From positions 1-64,000 of the forward strand of contig JAPWUU010000003.1 of NCBI GenBank assembly GCA_028275365.1: a DNA stretch of 64,000 bases, read 5' to 3'. This DNA comes from Candidatus Caldatribacterium sp. (GTDB taxonomy: Bacteria; Atribacterota; Atribacteria; Atribacterales; Caldatribacteriaceae). Positions 1-8,663 of the stretch are shown in pieces. The notes below the pieces were generated by a model. It was not told the origin of the DNA. It saw only the letters and a list, made by a program, of their open reading frames with translations, and did not search any database. A program made the position numbers and the translations under genes. Position 1 is the first letter of the stretch, and each line of letters opens with the position of its first letter.

Positions 1-480
1 CACCTTGCTGAGCTTGAGGCGCTCCGGGCCAGGAAGGCCCAGATTTTCCGTCCTGAGGTCCCTGTGGATCGCGCCCTTCTCCCCCGGATGTTCAAGGAGG
101 GTTTTGAGGCAGAGGTATGGGAGGAGATTGGTGGTCGGTGCCTCTCCTGCGCCAACTGCACCAACGTCTGTCCTACCTGCTACTGCTTTGACGTTCGGGA
201 CGTCCCGGATGTGAACCTTGTGACCGGAAGGCGTATCAGGGTCTGGGATTCCTGTCAGAATGAGCCCTTCGCCAAAATTGCCAGTGGAGAGAGTTTCCGG
301 GCAGAGCGTTCAGACCGAAAGCGGCATCGGTTCAACCGAAAGTTTTCGTATCCTGTGAAGCGGTACAACCGGTTCTTCTGCACCGGTTGCGGGCGGTGCA
401 GTCGAGTCTGTATGGCAAAGATTGATCTGAAAGAAACCATTACCCAGCTTGCTCGGGAAACCGGATACCTCAAAGTGTGA
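1..480 (+). CDS. [NiFe] hydrogenase (group 3b / sulfhydrogenase-type) beta subunit, 4Fe-4S protein; 5' end outside window
   Basis: Frame open from base 1 (HLAELEALRARK...); two 4Fe-4S motifs CLSCANCTNVCPTCYC and CTGCGRCSRVC; followed by gamma, delta, alpha subunits in Pyrococcus hydrogenase I order. Confidence 0.85.
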   Translation, partial: HLAELEALRARKAQIFRPEVPVDRALLPRMFKEGFEAEVWEEIGGRCLSCANCTNVCPTCYCFDVRDVPDVNLVTGRRIRVWDSCQNEPFAKIASGESFRAERSDRKRHRFNRKFSYPVKRYNRFFCTGCGRCSRVCMAKIDLKETITQLARETGYLKV

Positions 481-1328
481 GGGGTGGAACCGTGGAGAAA
501 CTCCTTTTGAGTCACACCGGATACGAGGTGAAAGAGGCTCGAATTCTCAGGACTTCTCGCCTCACCGAAAAGGACAAGCTCTTTGAGCTTTCCCTAATCG
601 GTGGAGAGATTCTCGATTTTGAGCCGGGGCAGTTCGTGGAGGTTTCACTCCTTGGCGTGGGTGAGGCTCCGATATCCATTTGCTCTTCGCCCACAAGGCG
701 CCAGAGCTTTGAACTCTGTGTCCGGGCGGTGGGCCGGTTGACCACTGCCTTGCACCGTCTTGAGGCGGGGGATGTGGTGGGCATCCGGGGGCCTTTTGGG
801 GTTGGATTCCCCATCACCAGGCTCATCGGGCACGACCTTTTGCTCATTGCCGGGGGTATAGGCCTTGCTCCGCTTCGCTCTCTCATCAACTACGTCATGG
901 ACAACCGACGCGATTTCGGCAGGGTGCATGTGCTTTTTGGCTGCAAAGACCCTCAGAATCTCCTCTTCCGGGATGAAATCGAACTGTGGCAGCGGCGGAT
1001 GGACGTGGGTTTCCAGTGCACGGTGGACCGTGCGGACCCTGACTGGAAGGGCAACGTGGGCATGGTGACGGCCCTTATCCCTGGGGTGGACATCAACCCA
1101 GAGGAGACCTTTGCGGTCATGGTGGGTCCCCCAGTGATGTACCGTTTCGTGATTGCCGAGCTCCTCAAGAAGGGTATTCCCGAGGACCAGATTGTTCTTT
1201 CCCTTGAGCGCCATATGAAGTGCGGCCTTGGGAAGTGCGGGCACTGTCAGATTCACGACATCTACTGCTGCCAGGATGGCCCGGTGTTCTTTTACGAGAG
1301 AATCAAGGATCTCAAAGGGGCGATATGA
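477..1328 (+). CDS. [NiFe] hydrogenase gamma subunit (FAD/NAD(P)-binding oxidoreductase)
   Basis: Ferredoxin-NADP reductase-like fold motifs (GGIGLAPLRSLINYV) and C-terminal Cys cluster CGLGKCGHCQI...YCCQDGPVF; GTG start overlapping previous stop. Confidence 0.88.
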   Translation: MRGGTVEKLLLSHTGYEVKEARILRTSRLTEKDKLFELSLIGGEILDFEPGQFVEVSLLGVGEAPISICSSPTRRQSFELCVRAVGRLTTALHRLEAGDVVGIRGPFGVGFPITRLIGHDLLLIAGGIGLAPLRSLINYVMDNRRDFGRVHVLFGCKDPQNLLFRDEIELWQRRMDVGFQCTVDRADPDWKGNVGMVTALIPGVDINPEETFAVMVGPPVMYRFVIAELLKKGIPEDQIVLSLERHMKCGLGKCGHCQIHDIYCCQDGPVFFYERIKDLKGAI

Positions 1329-2104
1329 TGAAGGCGCCAAAAGTTGCTTTTTTCGACTTCACCTGCTGCGAAGGATGTCAGCTTCAGGTGGCCAATCTCG
1401 GGGAGGAGCTCCTCGAGCTCCTCAAGTTCCTGGATCTTGTGGAATTCCGGGAAACCATGAGCGAGCGGTGGGATGGGATCTACGATATTGCCATCATCGA
1501 AGGGAGTATCACCACTCCTCATGATGTTGAACGAATCAAACGGATCCGCCAGCGCTCGAAAACACTCATTGCCTACGGGTCCTGTGCCACCATCGGCGGG
1601 GTCAACGGCATGAAGAACGCCTTTGACCTTGAGGAGATCCTCCGGTACGTCTATGGAGAAGGGGCAAGGTTTTTCACCACCCTTCCCACCCGTCCGGTGC
1701 ATGAAGTCGTTCCTGTGGAGTACTTCGTCCATGGATGCCCTGTGTACCAGCCTGAGTTCCTCGAAGTGCTCAAGTGTGCTCTCCTTGGGATTCCCTATCA
1801 CGTACCGGATGTGGCCGTTTGTGTAGAATGCAAGTTCAACGAGAACGTCTGTTTCTACGAGCGAGGTCTCACCTGTCTTGGTCCCATCACCCGGGCGGGG
1901 TGCAACTCCTGGTGCATCAACAATGGCAACATCTGCTACGGGTGCCGGGGGATGGTTTCCAACCCCAATGAGCGGGGATTCCTCGAGGTGCTTGAGCGTT
2001 ACGGTGTCCGTGTAGAGTTTCTGGTCCGACGGATGGACATGTACAACGCCTGTCGAATCCTGAAAGGAGCGGGGAAAGGGCATGGGGAAGAGCATACGCG
2101 TTGA
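1325..2104 (+). CDS. [NiFe] hydrogenase delta (small) subunit
   Basis: N-terminal FFDFTCCEGCQLQ, AYGSCATIGGVNG, C-terminal Cys motifs; start overlaps gamma stop (ATGATG). Confidence 0.9.
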   Translation: MMKAPKVAFFDFTCCEGCQLQVANLGEELLELLKFLDLVEFRETMSERWDGIYDIAIIEGSITTPHDVERIKRIRQRSKTLIAYGSCATIGGVNGMKNAFDLEEILRYVYGEGARFFTTLPTRPVHEVVPVEYFVHGCPVYQPEFLEVLKCALLGIPYHVPDVAVCVECKFNENVCFYERGLTCLGPITRAGCNSWCINNGNICYGCRGMVSNPNERGFLEVLERYGVRVEFLVRRMDMYNACRILKGAGKGHGEEHTR

Positions 2105-3425
2105 CGTTGAATACCTCACCCGGGTTGAGGGGCACGGGAACATCGTGGTGGACGTCCGGGACGGAACGCTCAGGGAATGTCGCCTGGAGATTATAGAATC
2201 GCCGAGATTTTTCGAGGGAATGCTCCGGGGACGGTCCATTTTCGAGGCCCAGCACATCACCTCTCGAATCTGCGGCATCTGTGCCTGTGCCCATTCCCTG
2301 GCCTCCATTCAGGCAGCGGAAGAGGCCATCGGTTTTGTGCCCAGTGAGCAGACGGTGAAGCTGCGGAAATTCCTTCTTGATATTGAAATTCTCGATAGCC
2401 ACGTCCTCCACATCTACTTCCTCGTTGCCCCGGACCTTTTTGGCGCGAAGAGTTTCGTCCCTCTTGTGGAGACCCACAACGCGGTGGTTCGGAGAGCACT
2501 ACGACTCAAGAAAACCTGCAACGATGTCTGTGATATCCTTGTGGGCCGACATGTCCACCCCATAAGCTGCACTGTGGGGGGATTCACGAAGCTTCCTCGT
2601 CCTGGGGACCTCGAGAAGATGCGTAGCCTCCTCCTTGGGATGATTCCCGACCTTGAGGCCACGGTCGACCTCGTTCGAGGATTCCGCTTTCCTGAATTCG
2701 AGCGGGAAACGGAGTACGTGGCCCTGGTGTCTGATGACGATGAGTATCCGCTCCTTATGGGGGATATCGGTTCAACTGATGGGGTCCGCCTCCCGAAGAA
2801 AGACTACAGGAAAATCACCAATGAATTCGTGGTTCCCCACTCGACGGCAAAGCATACCCACTTGAGCCGTGATTCCTACATGGTTGGAGCTCTGGCCCGT
2901 CTGAATCTGAACTACCCCAAACTCCATCCCAGAGCGAAGGAAATAGCGGACCTTTTTGGAATGCATCGAAAGGTCACGAACCCCTATCTGAATACCGTTG
3001 CCCAGCTTGTGGAGTGTTTCCACTGTCTCTACCACGCGGTGGGTATCGTGGAGGAGTTTCTCGAAAGAGGCCTCGACTACAACGAGGAGATTGTGGTAGG
3101 GCTTAACGAGAAACAGCGCATCCCGGTTCGGGCTGGAAGCGGTGTTGGGGCGGTGGAAGCACCCCGGGGAACACTCTACCACCACTACGAGGTTGACGAC
3201 CACGGCCGCATTGTGCATGCTAACTGCGTCATTCCCACTGGACAGAACCTCCGGAACATCGAGTACGATATGCGGAAGCTCGTTCCTGAAATTCTTGACC
3301 GAAGCGAAGAAGAAATCCAGCTTGCCCTTGAGATGCTCGTGCGGGCGTATGACCCCTGTATTTCCTGTTCTACCCATTTCCTCAATGTTACCTTTGTTGG
3401 ACGAGAAAATCCGAAAGGCTCTTGA
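2082..3425 (+). CDS. [NiFe] hydrogenase alpha (large, catalytic) subunit
   Basis: Ni ligand motifs RICGICACAH and DPCISCSTH followed by a short C-terminal peptide for protease processing. Confidence 0.95.
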   Translation: MGKSIRVDVEYLTRVEGHGNIVVDVRDGTLRECRLEIIESPRFFEGMLRGRSIFEAQHITSRICGICACAHSLASIQAAEEAIGFVPSEQTVKLRKFLLDIEILDSHVLHIYFLVAPDLFGAKSFVPLVETHNAVVRRALRLKKTCNDVCDILVGRHVHPISCTVGGFTKLPRPGDLEKMRSLLLGMIPDLEATVDLVRGFRFPEFERETEYVALVSDDDEYPLLMGDIGSTDGVRLPKKDYRKITNEFVVPHSTAKHTHLSRDSYMVGALARLNLNYPKLHPRAKEIADLFGMHRKVTNPYLNTVAQLVECFHCLYHAVGIVEEFLERGLDYNEEIVVGLNEKQRIPVRAGSGVGAVEAPRGTLYHHYEVDDHGRIVHANCVIPTGQNLRNIEYDMRKLVPEILDRSEEEIQLALEMLVRAYDPCISCSTHFLNVTFVGRENPKGS

Positions 3426-3876
3426 GCCAGCTTTCACGGGGAAAACGGTTATTGTCACTGTCGGGAACCCTCTCCGAAAAGACGATGGGGTGGGGGTGTA
3501 TATCGGGGAGAAGCTTGCCCCGGTGCTCCCTCCCTGTTTTCGCCTCATCCAGGCAGGTTTTGCTCCGGAGCGGTTCATCGACGATATTCTCAGCGAACAA
3601 CCGGCAAAGGTGATCTTCATCGACGCTGCCTCTTTTGGCGGTGTTCCGGGGGAAATCCGGGTGCTGACGGAGGAAGAAGTCGTTTCGGTCACCCTCAGTA
3701 CCCATACGTTTCCCCTCCCGGTGATTGCAAGGATTGTGGCTGATGCAACAGGGTGCGAGGTTGTCTTTGTGGGGATTCAGCCTGAGGATGTTTCCTTTGG
3801 GGAAGGATTGAGTGAAGCGGTGGAACGCGCCGCCTCTGCCATTGTGGCGTACCTTGGAGGGTTGCGTTATGCATGA
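3385..3876 (+). CDS. Hydrogenase maturation protease (HycI/HyaD family)
   Basis: VTVGNPLRKDDGVGVYIGEKL motif; ATG at 3385 inside the end of the large subunit gene. Confidence 0.88.
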   Translation: MLPLLDEKIRKALEPAFTGKTVIVTVGNPLRKDDGVGVYIGEKLAPVLPPCFRLIQAGFAPERFIDDILSEQPAKVIFIDAASFGGVPGEIRVLTEEEVVSVTLSTHTFPLPVIARIVADATGCEVVFVGIQPEDVSFGEGLSEAVERAASAIVAYLGGLRYA

Positions 3877-4111
3877 ACTCCGACTGGTCCGAGAGGTTTT
3901 CGAGGATCTCCTCCGCCGGGGGGAAACGGAGGGCCTGCAAAGGATTACCCGGGTGTACCTCCGGATGGGGGAGTTCACCGAGATTGACCCGGAGGTCCTC
4001 AGGTACTTTTTTGCTGAAAAGTCCCGGGGGACCATCCTCGAGGGGGCCGAGATCATTATAGAGCACAGTCCATTGAGGGAGCTGCGTCTCCTCTCCTTTG
4101 AGGGGGAATAG
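3869..4111 (+). CDS. Short HypA-like hydrogenase nickel-incorporation protein lacking the zinc-finger region
   Basis: MHELRLVREVFEDLLRRGE... typical HypA N-terminus; only 80 aa and no cysteines. Confidence 0.75.
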   Translation: MHELRLVREVFEDLLRRGETEGLQRITRVYLRMGEFTEIDPEVLRYFFAEKSRGTILEGAEIIIEHSPLRELRLLSFEGE

Positions 4112-4116
4112 TCGCT

Positions 4117-5415
4117 TTGTGCTACGCCATTCCAGGACAGGTTGTCGCCCTTCATGGGCGGATCGCCACGGTGGAATATTTCGGTGAGCGAAGGAAGGCG
4201 TACAATGAGTTTCCCTCCCTCAGCGTGGGGGATTTTGTTTACGCCCAGGGAGGATTTGTGATCAAGGTCGTTCCACCTGAGGAGGCGCAGGAAATCCTTG
4301 CCGTCTGGAGGGAAACCTTTTTCGAGCTCCAGGAGGTGGATCTTCGTCTTGCCCGGCTTGAGGTGGAGAGGGAGGGAGTGGATCGGCGAATTCTCCGTAT
4401 CCTCGATAAGGCTCTTGAGGAACGTTCGCTCTCGAAAGAAGAACTCCTTACCCTCCTTGGTCTTCAGTCTCCAAAAGAGCAGGAATTGCTCTACAAAGTG
4501 GCCAATTTCCTCCGGAGGAAGTACCACGGCAACGCCACGTGCGTCCATGGGGTTCTCGAAATCTCGAACTTCTGCTTTCGCAATTGCGCCTACTGTGGTC
4601 TTTCGACCCACAATGGCTCTCTTTTGCGGTATCGCATGAGTGACGAAGAGATTCTTGAAGCGGTGCGTGAAGCGGTTGAGGTCTATGGGTTCCAGGCACT
4701 TGTGCTCCAGAGCGGGGAGGATCCGGGGCGTTCGGTGAGAGAACTTGCAGAGCTTGTGCGGGAAATCAAGAGGCGTCATGCCGTCCTTATCTTCATAAGC
4801 TTTGGGGAGATTGGTCTTGAGGGGCTTGAGGTGCTCTACGAAGCCGGGGCGAGGGGGATCTTGCTCCGCTTTGAGACGAGCAACGCCGGGCTTTACGAGC
4901 AACTGCATCCGGGGTACAAACTTTCACACCGCCTTGCCCATCTTGAGAGGGCCCTGGAACTCGGGTACCTTGTAGCTACGGGGGGACTCATCGGGCTTCC
5001 AGGGCAGAAGCTCTCCGACATCCTTGAGGATATTCTCCTTGCGAGGGCGCTTTCGGCAGAAATGTACAGCTTCGGACCGTTCCTGCCTCATCCGGCAACC
5101 CCCCTGGCGTTTTCTCCCCCTCCTTCCCCATCTCTTGTGCTCAACACCCTGGCGGTGGCCCGGCTTGTGGACCCTAAAAACGCCAAAGTCCTCATCACCA
5201 CAGCCTTTGAGACCCTGGATCCTCAGGCTCGCAGGATGGGCCTGCTTTCCGGGGCAAGCTCGCTGATGCTGAACGTCACACCTCTGAAGTTCCGACCATA
5301 CTACACCCTGTATCCCGGAAGGGCTCACGAGGGGGAAACCATACGGGAACAGGTTGAACAGACGATTCGCCTGCTCCGGTCTCTTGGGCGGGCGCCTATG
5401 GACCTTGGGGTTTAG
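4117..5415 (+). CDS. HypC-HydE-like radical SAM fusion protein
   Basis: TTG start gives MCYAIPGQVV...GDFVYAQGGFVIKVV (HypC); then HGVLEISNFCFRNCAYCGLS...LRYRMSDEEI...LQSGEDPG and TAFETLDPQARRMGLLSGASSLMLNVTPLKFRPYYTLYPGR (HydE-type). Confidence 0.88.
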   Translation: MCYAIPGQVVALHGRIATVEYFGERRKAYNEFPSLSVGDFVYAQGGFVIKVVPPEEAQEILAVWRETFFELQEVDLRLARLEVEREGVDRRILRILDKALEERSLSKEELLTLLGLQSPKEQELLYKVANFLRRKYHGNATCVHGVLEISNFCFRNCAYCGLSTHNGSLLRYRMSDEEILEAVREAVEVYGFQALVLQSGEDPGRSVRELAELVREIKRRHAVLIFISFGEIGLEGLEVLYEAGARGILLRFETSNAGLYEQLHPGYKLSHRLAHLERALELGYLVATGGLIGLPGQKLSDILEDILLARALSAEMYSFGPFLPHPATPLAFSPPPSPSLVLNTLAVARLVDPKNAKVLITTAFETLDPQARRMGLLSGASSLMLNVTPLKFRPYYTLYPGRAHEGETIREQVEQTIRLLRSLGRAPMDLGV

Positions 5416-8400
5416 GGATTCTGGTGTCTTTCCTCTTCGAGGATCTCGATGAAGGCTTCGACAATCCGGGGGTCAAACTGCGTGCCGCTACAGCGCCGGA
5501 GTTCCTCAATAGCCTCTTTCTTAGTCCTTGCTTTCCGGTAGGGGCGGCCGGTTACCATCACGTCGTACGCATCGCAGATGGCAATGATGCGCGAGAGGAG
5601 GGGAATGTCCTCTCCTTGAAGCCCCCGGGGATATCCGGTACCGTCAAAGCGTTCGTGGTGGAAGAGGATGTAGTTGGCGATAGAGGAGAGCTCCCAGATG
5701 GACTGGGTGATCCGGAAACCCACCTCCGGATGCTTTTTGACAATGGCCCATTCCTCCTCATCCAGAGGACCAGGTTTTTCCAGAATATTCTGGGGAATGG
5801 CAATTTTCCCGATATCGTGGAATTCGGCAAGGAGGCTCAGTTCGTCGAGTTCCCTCTGGGAGAGTCCGAGGGCCTTTCCAAGACGAAGGGCCAGCTCTCG
5901 AATGCGCTGGGAGTGCTCCTCGGTTTCCTGGGTCACCGCCCGGAGTGATGCCCGAAAGGCCTGGAGAACCTGGTTGTGGAAGCTCAGGCTTTCGGTGAGC
6001 TTGCGCTGGTACATCCAGTTCTCGGCAATACGCAGGACCTCATCAAGGGGCTGGTTCGGGTCGGTCTTGGTGCCGTAACCCAGGGAGATACTCAGCGGGA
6101 TGGACGCCACTGCTGTCTTTTTGAACTCTTCCTGAATGCTTTCCCCAAGCGCCTGGACTTCAGCACTTGAGGTACGGGGAAGGAGTACCACGAATTCGTC
6201 TCCTCCCAGACGAGCCACCACACCCCGGTCCTTGCAGACTCCTTCAAGAATGCGTGCTGCCTGGCGCAGGAACTCGTCCCCCATGGTGTGGCCAAAGGTG
6301 TCGTTCACGAGTTTCAGGCCGTTTAAGTCCCCCATGATGACGCTTAAGGGGAGGTTCTCGGGAGTGTCAAGGCGGTTCATTTCCTGCTCAAAGAACGTCC
6401 GGTTATAAAGACCCGTGAGGGTGTCGTGAAAGGTGAGGTAGCGGATGCGGTCTTCGGCGAGTTTCCGTTCCGTGAGGTCCAAAAGGAGCACAAGGAGCGC
6501 CTCTTCCTCGCGGTACCGTATGGGCGTGAGGCGAGCCAGAACCCATTTGGTTTTCTGGCCCTTTGTCGTCAGGGTGAATTCCGCCTCAAAGGGGAGCATC
6601 GCTATTCTTTCGTGCCACCGTGAAAGTAGCGCAGTACCCTCGGGGGAAATCTCTGACCAGAGTTCGTCGGTGAGCTCTGTTGCCCGGTATCCGGTGAGGG
6701 CCTCGAAGAAGGGGTTGACGTAGACCCATCCGGTGTGCGCGCGGATGAGGGTGGCCACAGGGAGGGACTCGGCAAGGGTCCGGAACTGCTCTTCGCTTTC
6801 CTGCAGCGCTCGCTGAGCCTCTTCGCGGATGGTCTCAAGGTCGATACTGTAGAGGGCAAAGGAGAGGTCCTGGGAAAGCTCGAGGAAGAGCGTTTCTTCT
6901 TCCTCGTCGTTCAGAAAGGGCAGAGGAAGGGCTACAACGATTCCCCCATAGAGGCGTTCCCCCCACCTGAGGGGGGCGACGAAAAGCCCCTCACCCGGAC
7001 GGGGAAGGGAAGAAGGAACGGTGAGATCGGTGGGAGCCATCTTTTTGACCCTGTCCTGTGGATGCCCGGGATCCTTCAGGATGCGCTCTAAGACGGTACC
7101 GAATGTGCTGAGGTGCTCCTCAGAAAATCCCAAAGCGATGACAGAAGGTTGCTCAGTGCCGAAGAGCACTACGCCCGCCCCGGTGTACCCGCACCCCTCG
7201 ACGAGTTCCCGGCATATTCCCTGGACGAGACGTTCCCGGTTTTTTTCCCGGACGATGAGCTGGTTCACGTTCCGGACGGCTTTTAGCACCCGGTTCAGGT
7301 GGAAGAGACGGGCCTCCCGACGCTTTTCTTCCGTGATATCAAGGCACACCGCAAGGCCGGCGAACCGACCCCGGTAGCGGATGGTGGAGCCGCGAACCAG
7401 GATCCAGCGTTCTTCCCCATCTTTACGGAGGATTTTGATCTCGTACTGGGCCTCCCCTTCCTCTCCGCGTTGCCTTCTGGCGACGTTTGCCCGTACCCGT
7501 TCCACAAAGTCAGGATGAACGAGGGCCTCAACAGGAAGCGTCAAAAGCTCTTCCTGGGAGTACCCCGTGATCCTTTCGGCTTCTTCGTTGCACCAGACGT
7601 AGCGGCCATCCTGGTAGATGAGGATGGCCGCCGGAGCAAGGCGGGTGAGGGTCCGGAACTTGCGTTCGCTCTCCCGCAGGGCGTCTTCGGCCTGAATTCT
7701 CTCGGTGACATCCTTCACGTACTCGATAACTCCAAGAATGGTGCCGTCTCTGTCCCGGTAAGGGTGGGCGGTGAGCTCAAGCCACCCTCTGATTGCTCCT
7801 TCTTTCGTGTAGGGGACGACGTGGGTCACCCTCTTCCCGCTCTCCATGGCGGGGATGGTGGGGCAGAAAAAGCAGGGGGAAGTGCGGCCATGGTACGCCT
7901 CGTAGCACTTTTTCCCCACGAGGGGCATTGCGTGTTCATAAAGCCGCTCCATGAAGGAGTTCACCCGGAGGATGGTGAAGTTCCGGTCAAGGACACAAAG
8001 GCCATCCTGGATACTTTCGAAGACGTCGTTCAAAAATTGCCGCTCCCGTTCCAGGGCTTCTTCTTTCAACTTGATTTCGGTAATATCCCTGGAAATCCCC
8101 ACAATGCCGGTGATTTCCCCTTTTTCGTTCCGGAGGGGGATTTTGGTGGTCAGAACCCAGCTTGTCCGGCCATCGGGCCAGGTTTCGAGTTCTACCTTCC
8201 CTACGATGGGTTCGCCAGTTTCCATGATGCGCTGCTCATCGGCGTAGGCTTCCTGGGCGTGGGGTGGAGAGAAAAAGTCAAAATCCGTTTTGCCCAGAAG
8301 GTCCTCTACTCGCTTGAGGCCAAAGTATCTTACCAGGGATTTGCTCCCTCCGATGAAGCGGCTTTGCCGGTCCTTGAAGTAGATGCGGTCCGGGGTGTAC

Positions 8401-8663
8401 TCCATGAGGAACTCAAGGAGGCGTTCCTGGGCCTTTGCCTTCTGGGTGAGGATGCGTTCCTCGAAGAAGAGGGACACGACCCCAAAAAAGAGCACGACGA
8501 TGCCCCCAAGAAGGAGCAAGAGGAAGAGGGATGGGGAAGTTTCCATGAGCCTTGCGTGGAAGAGTGTACCGGCACCAAGGAGGAGGAACCCAAAAGCCAG
8601 CGCCCCGTATCCCCGCCCTTTCCTCCCAAGAAAAGCCCTGAGCATCTCAATCACGGTTCTCAC
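5412..8663 (-). CDS. Membrane multi-PAS/GAF sensor with GGDEF and HD-GYP output domains
   Basis: N-terminal TM helices, several PAS motifs, RLGGDEFVVLLPR, and HDIGK...HHERFDGTGYPRGL. Confidence 0.92.
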   Translation of the reverse strand: MRTVIEMLRAFLGRKGRGYGALAFGFLLLGAGTLFHARLMETSPSLFLLLLLGGIVVLFFGVVSLFFEERILTQKAKAQERLLEFLMEYTPDRIYFKDRQSRFIGGSKSLVRYFGLKRVEDLLGKTDFDFFSPPHAQEAYADEQRIMETGEPIVGKVELETWPDGRTSWVLTTKIPLRNEKGEITGIVGISRDITEIKLKEEALERERQFLNDVFESIQDGLCVLDRNFTILRVNSFMERLYEHAMPLVGKKCYEAYHGRTSPCFFCPTIPAMESGKRVTHVVPYTKEGAIRGWLELTAHPYRDRDGTILGVIEYVKDVTERIQAEDALRESERKFRTLTRLAPAAILIYQDGRYVWCNEEAERITGYSQEELLTLPVEALVHPDFVERVRANVARRQRGEEGEAQYEIKILRKDGEERWILVRGSTIRYRGRFAGLAVCLDITEEKRREARLFHLNRVLKAVRNVNQLIVREKNRERLVQGICRELVEGCGYTGAGVVLFGTEQPSVIALGFSEEHLSTFGTVLERILKDPGHPQDRVKKMAPTDLTVPSSLPRPGEGLFVAPLRWGERLYGGIVVALPLPFLNDEEEETLFLELSQDLSFALYSIDLETIREEAQRALQESEEQFRTLAESLPVATLIRAHTGWVYVNPFFEALTGYRATELTDELWSEISPEGTALLSRWHERIAMLPFEAEFTLTTKGQKTKWVLARLTPIRYREEEALLVLLLDLTERKLAEDRIRYLTFHDTLTGLYNRTFFEQEMNRLDTPENLPLSVIMGDLNGLKLVNDTFGHTMGDEFLRQAARILEGVCKDRGVVARLGGDEFVVLLPRTSSAEVQALGESIQEEFKKTAVASIPLSISLGYGTKTDPNQPLDEVLRIAENWMYQRKLTESLSFHNQVLQAFRASLRAVTQETEEHSQRIRELALRLGKALGLSQRELDELSLLAEFHDIGKIAIPQNILEKPGPLDEEEWAIVKKHPEVGFRITQSIWELSSIANYILFHHERFDGTGYPRGLQGEDIPLLSRIIAICDAYDVMVTGRPYRKARTKKEAIEELRRCSGTQFDPRIVEAFIEILEEERHQNP

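Follow-up and report, generated by a model that had tools for sequence, protein, structure and literature searches.

HypC–HydE fusion proteins and a probable [NiFe] hydrogenase maturation route without HypD, HypE and HypF

A [NiFe] hydrogenase operon of Candidatus Caldatribacterium sp., carried on the 64,000-nucleotide stretch of DNA analysed here (the window), includes a gene encoding a fusion of the chaperone HypC to a HydE-type radical SAM enzyme. From this gene and from the genomes in which the fusion recurs, we propose an undescribed [NiFe] maturation route in which radical SAM enzymes replace HypD, HypE, HypF and usually HypB. We consider such a route probable; the genomic support for an alternative [NiFe] route is strong, and the chemistry is inferred without experiment. 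The genes hypD, hypE and hypF are standard and thought to be essential for nickel-iron hydrogenases, HypE and HypF making cyanide from carbamoyl phosphate, and HydE, to our knowledge, has no described role outside the assembly of iron-iron hydrogenases.

The fusion gene begins with TTG five bases past the stop of the preceding gene, and ATG is the start in 33 of 35 fusion loci checked. The preliminary description, made from the sequence alone, had claimed HypC and a HydE-like radical SAM domain in a single ORF, which was confirmed by profile and structure matches (Table 1). The PF01455 HypC match covers residues 2–64 (48.9 bits, gathering cut-off 28.5), and the score with TIGR00074 is 37.7, under the cut-off of 48. 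Radical_SAM PF04055 matches residues 148–307, and TIGR03956 (HydE) matches residues 96–422 with 222 bits against an equivalog cut-off of 254.6, a value exceeded by other fusions (332 for L034, 305 for L086 and 266 for L087). The HydE score far exceeds those of PylB (138), BioB (89), HydG (70) and HmdB (70) for the same protein, and the equivalog cut-offs of PylB and BioB were not met (137.6 against 348.2 and 89 against 225, respectively), which speaks against membership of either of these two families. HmdB, by family name a HydE/BioB-like radical SAM protein of [Fe]-hydrogenase (Hmd) maturation in NCBIfam, is likewise tied to a hydrogenase, but its model gives only 69.6 bits against a cut-off of 320.9. 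The closest PDB match is HydE of Thermotoga maritima (5fep, E 2.5e-65, residues 95–427). The AF2 model of the fusion (pLDDT 93.4, pTM 0.93) superimposes on T. maritima HydE with 1.5 Å over 336 columns, the complex-B-bound entries 8qmk and 7o1o being among the matches; its high pTM suggests that HypC would be fixed in position relative to the HydE domain, although no interdomain distance is available for this prediction.

Table 1. Features of the fusion gene and the hydrogenase operon (positions in the window)
Feature	Position	Strand	Evidence or remark
Hydrogenase beta (FeS) subunit, C-terminal part, 5′ end cut by contig start	64..480	+	Fer4_22 PF17179 104 bits; sulfhydrogenase beta 98 bits
Hydrogenase gamma (FAD/NAD) subunit	477..1328	+	NF006220 cytochrome-c3 hydrogenase gamma 296 bits
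[NiFe] hydrogenase small (delta) subunit	1325..2104	+	PF01058 86 bits; sulfhydrogenase delta 177 bits
Group-3b-like [NiFe] hydrogenase large subunit	2082..3425	+	PF00374 118 bits; P. furiosus sulfhydrogenase 1 alpha 9nez E 2.8e-81
Hydrogenase maturation protease, HycI family, exact start uncertain	3385..3876	+	TIGR00072 111 bits, cut-off 47.45
Mini-HypA, 80-aa N-terminal (MHE) nickel-site domain only, without Zn-finger CxxC	3869..4111	+	PF01155 positions 1–69 of 112, 50.7 bits
HypC–HydE fusion protein, 432 aa, TTG start	4117..5415	+	One uninterrupted ORF
HypC domain, residues 1–67, Cys2 at 4120–4122	4117..4317	+	PF01455 48.9 bits; HypC structures 2z1c/3vyr
Gln44 codon; HypD-contacting His in canonical HypC	4246..4248	+	Q in all 34 rows; H in 2z1c, 3d3r, 2ot2
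HydE-type radical SAM domain, residues 95–427	4399..5397	+	5fep E 2.5e-65; Foldseek 3iiz rmsd 1.5 Å over 336 columns
Cys142 and His144; H52/R54 in T. maritima HydE	4540..4548	+	36/36 fusions, 0/4 free HydE; candidate extra ligands
Radical SAM cluster motif C153-X3-C157-X2-C160	4573..4596	+	Invariant in fusions

The HydE domain shares 38% identity, an rmsd of 1.5 Å over 336 columns and the CX3CX2C motif with free-standing HydE (T. maritima 3iiz and 8qmk), and differs from it by the N-terminal HypC and by the absence of the accessory-cluster cysteines. The fusion contains exactly five cysteines (C2, C142, C153, C157 and C160), all invariant across 34 aligned homologues and none of them at the C-terminus, bearing out the earlier statement that the accessory cysteines are lacking. 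The positions of T. maritima Q107, R159, E161, R180, M224, T268, Y303 and Y306, which we take to be HydE pocket residues, are retained. Changes relative to T. maritima include the loss of T134 and R155 and the replacement of D154 by R246, and ten residues are fixed in the fusions and occur in none of four free HydE; two of these, Cys142 (T. maritima H52) and His144 (R54), lie on the first barrel strand. Loss of HydE residues for SAM or substrate binding, which would have refuted the original reading, is therefore mostly excluded, with cluster and most substrate-pocket positions kept alongside these specific changes. The HypC part retains Cys2, the iron-carrying residue that holds Fe(CN)2CO in HypC-type chaperones (PMC8692609). 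A histidine of HypC, His44 in T. kodakarensis and His51 in E. coli, is required for contact with HypD (PMC9002611), and at this site every aligned fusion (34 rows) has glutamine, a replacement that fits loss of HypD.

The large subunit encoded upstream of the fusion has the P. furiosus sulfhydrogenase 1 alpha subunit as its nearest relative, carries the motifs RICGICACAH, EAPRG, PTGQN and DPCISCSTH, and ends in a C-terminal tail of 15 aa. The beta subunit, truncated in the window, is found as a complete copy of ~348 aa at another locus (L003). No CxxC occurs in the nine mini-HypA copies of 80–81 aa that were listed, so the zinc domain is gone; mini-HypA without the zinc finger recurs in several fusion genomes and HypB is mostly absent, which together amount to a reduced nickel-insertion set. 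On the opposite strand, a convergent gene at 5412–8663 (−) encodes a 1083-aa PAS, GGDEF and HD-GYP signalling-like protein and abuts the fusion gene.

A scan of GTDB species genomes revealed the fusion, with 44–96% identity, at 36 loci spread over several phyla and 34 genomes besides the window's own, and at more loci in Omnitrophota. Recurrence of the full fusion at these 36 loci excludes the possibility that a sequencing error had joined two genes. As labelled in the records, the hosts are Caldatribacterium, Omnitrophota, Brevinematales/Spirochaetes, WOR-3, Elusimicrobia, Saganbacteria, UBP13, Nitrospirae and one "Gammaproteobacteria" MAG. The gene order beta–gamma–small–large–protease–(mini-HypA)–fusion recurs across groups, and at other loci the neighbours are genes of membrane-bound group-4 type hydrogenases and Mrp/NuoN-like antiporter subunits; the fusion is thus linked to hydrogenase operons in other genomes as well, and the objection that such linkage might be confined to the window can be dismissed. 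In a tree, the HydE domains of the fusions fall on one side of a branch that separates them from four free HydE (97/85).

Gene content was counted in 35 fusion genomes, the window's own included. Profile searches of these genomes gave no match at all to HypD (0/35), and neither HypE nor HypF scored over its cut-off in any of the 35; HypB was over cut-off in six and absent in 29. The NiFe large subunit (PF00374) was found in 34 of the 35. Group-3b large subunits in the fusion loci keep RICGIC, DPCISC (four Cys) and PRG, with PT-x-QN in nearly all, and their NiFe site looks normal as far as these sequence motifs can tell. The preliminary description had paired the fusion with HypD in a proposed assay; since HypD, HypE and HypF are absent, this pairing is not apt, and the fusion would replace HypD rather than partner it.

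Some weaker matches were inspected individually. HypE-like proteins scoring below the TIGR02124 cut-off (L095, L096, L098, L079 and L080) occur in genomes without HypF; the terminal PRxC was missing from those opened and present in a control from a HypD-bearing genome. Weak HypF matches proved to be partial only, the top one (128 bits, in G003) spanning the C-terminal half alone. Also in G003, a 526-aa protein (L097, G003:C29:113500-116000) resembles the C-terminal carbamoyltransferase half of HypF and has no match to the N-terminal half.

Because these absences were drawn from MAGs and single-cell assemblies, the Hyp genes might be present but missed, through incompleteness or divergence; most of the genomes are MAGs, and the window genome is 89.65% complete. 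A contrast within a single phylum bears on this reading. Among 384 Omnitrophota genomes, with fusion matches defined by E of at most 1e-80 and HypD by its cut-off, the fusion was found in 59 and HypD in 139, with an overlap of 0 where 21.4 would be expected (hypergeometric P 1.7e-13, shared ancestry ignored). The complete separation of fusion and HypD is a stronger point than the P values, which assume independent genomes. About 16 of the 59 matches align only beyond residue ~120, raising the question of free HydE, and the four that were opened (L084, L085, L087 and L088) turned out to be full fusions with a shorter linker. Chance loss from incomplete assemblies is unlikely given 35 genomes and this within-phylum contrast. 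The wider notion of overlooked Hyp genes is hardly tenable to us, as HypD was recovered in 0/35 and 0/59 fusion genomes while the same search gave 139 genomes over cut-off in the same phylum, and HypE and HypF are absent too.

In place of the Hyp proteins, the fusion is accompanied by HydG, which scored over cut-off in 32 of the 35 fusion genomes and was not seen in G001 and G026. The HydG of the window genome lies outside the 64,000-nt window, and is a C-terminal fragment of 294 residues, cut short where a 3581-bp contig ends. Within Omnitrophota, HydG is present in 57/59 fusion genomes (it was not seen in G026 and G308), against 22/139 HypD genomes and 77/186 with neither (Fisher P 2.6e-23 for fusion versus the rest, shared ancestry ignored), and of the 57 genomes having both, 30 carry the two genes no more than 4 kb apart. 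HydG adjoins the fusion in many loci, and in L034 (943 aa) and L086 (915 aa) a single polypeptide comprises HypC, HydE and HydG. This triple fusion, more than the double one, links the HydG/HydE half that concerns the synthon with the HypC half that concerns delivery. The proposal of a hybrid NiFe/FeFe maturation route, already raised in the preliminary description, is thereby strongly backed by co-occurrence, adjacency, the two triple fusions and the hydrogenase operon linkage, with its chemistry still inferred.

In many loci a further gene lies between the fusion and HydG; it was first taken for HypB and is a Rex redox repressor. At L008, L010 and L013, Rex lies between fusion and HydG downstream of the fusion, and NfnAB-like genes follow HydG, an arrangement which suggests that expression of the HypC–HydE/HydG module is NAD(H)-controlled.

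HydG might alternatively serve, together with the HydE domain, an [FeFe] hydrogenase, leaving the HypC part to serve the [NiFe] enzyme with ligands of unknown source, so that one chain would have two jobs. HydF, used as proxy for an [FeFe] client, scored over cut-off in 17 of the 35 fusion genomes, which is compatible with this idea, as is the window genome, where HydF is present and no HydE other than the fusion was found (a second HydE-like match, L002, is BioB), so that its fusion may serve both. Moreover, NiFe-linked HydG proteins share a group in the tree with the HydG encoded in a HydEFG operon (L052), and a HydG clade specific to the fusion system was sought there and not found. However, of the 18 genomes with no HydF over cut-off, 17 possess HydG, a presence that standard [FeFe] maturation cannot account for; HydG is frequently a neighbour of the fusion and of NiFe genes; several fusion genomes retain a separate HydE near HydG/HydF; and the loss of HypD, HypE and HypF is left unexplained. 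We therefore regard a division of labour within one chain as improbable. The HydG proteins themselves keep CX3CX2C in all 35 sequences examined and carry their C-terminal cluster cysteines as CX2CX22C or, among those inspected, as a shifted CX5CX19C; the latter, with the overall span kept, characterises a subgroup (L011, L051 and L066) that is NiFe-linked and FeFe-linked alike.

A second alternative makes the HydE domain a mere substitute for the HypD scaffold, with CO and CN coming from other, unrecognised enzymes and HydG being incidental. Free HydE is not itself a source of CO or CN, and no HydG was seen in G001 and G026, both of which would suit this view; the Omnitrophota counts for HydG (57/59 fusion genomes against 22/139 HypD genomes), its adjacency and the two triple fusions run so directly counter to it that we give it little credence, less than the preceding one.

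We thus return to the radical SAM route. HydG converts two tyrosines to Fe(II)(Cys)(CN)(CO)2, which is passed directly to HydE for adenosylation and reduction (PMC12752695), and HypC-type chaperones bind Fe(CN)2CO at Cys2 and deliver it to the large subunit in its apo form (PMC8692609; PMC11565642). In the proposed route, HydG would split tyrosine to yield an Fe–CO–CN synthon and hand it on to the HydE domain, which by SAM chemistry may strip the cysteine ligand off the iron unit and, rather than forming a dimer for HydF, deliver that unit to the HypC Cys2 in the same chain. Cys142 and His144 could act as transient ligands at this stage, and one CO may be exchanged for a second HydG-derived CN. 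HypC would then dock on the apo large subunit and insert the iron unit, after which mini-HypA might aid nickel insertion and the HycI-type protease would cleave any C-terminal tail that is present. An origin of the ligands in HydG, like the final ligand set, is inferred. The radical SAM domain had earlier been suggested to take part in CO or CN synthesis or in Fe-synthon processing; synthesis is most likely the task of HydG, and processing is the more likely one for HydE.

The HydG product is Fe(CO)2CN, whereas all characterised [NiFe] enzymes that we know of hold Fe(CN)2CO, a discrepancy that calls for either a ligand exchange or an active site of another kind. Under the second option the HydG iron unit would be inserted intact, with two CO and one CN, giving a ligand set unlike Fe(CN)2CO that is built wholly from tyrosine, in two lineages by one HypC–HydE–HydG polypeptide; we mention this as a speculative and rather unlikely possibility.

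The route shares with the Hyp pathway (HypABCDEF) the four-Cys large subunit as target, HypC with its Cys2, the HypA N-domain and the maturation protease, but it lacks HypD, HypE, HypF and mostly HypB, has HydE and HydG in their place, and uses a HypA without zinc domain and a HypC without the HypD-contact His. With the [FeFe] HydEFG pathway it shares the radical SAM motif and C-terminal cluster cysteines of HydG and the fold and most substrate-pocket residues of HydE, but it is linked to [NiFe] operons, half of its genomes have no HydF, and its HydE domain is joined to HypC and bears 10 clade-specific residues. The route thus fails a defining test of each of the two pathways while its parts belong to known families, and its chemistry remains unproven. 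A 2025 review treats six Hyp proteins as necessary and the anaerobic CO source as unresolved, with mention of neither HydG nor radical SAM enzymes (PMC12134894), and no description of the fusion or of HypD-free [NiFe] maturation was found in the literature (open PMC text only). If the route is real, HypD, HypE and HypF are not universally needed, tyrosine is the source of CO (and CN) in fusion-bearing bacteria, and the maturation systems of two unrelated hydrogenases use a common synthon; it would also provide heterologous hydrogenase production with a compact builder of the iron cofactor, perhaps consisting of one polypeptide.
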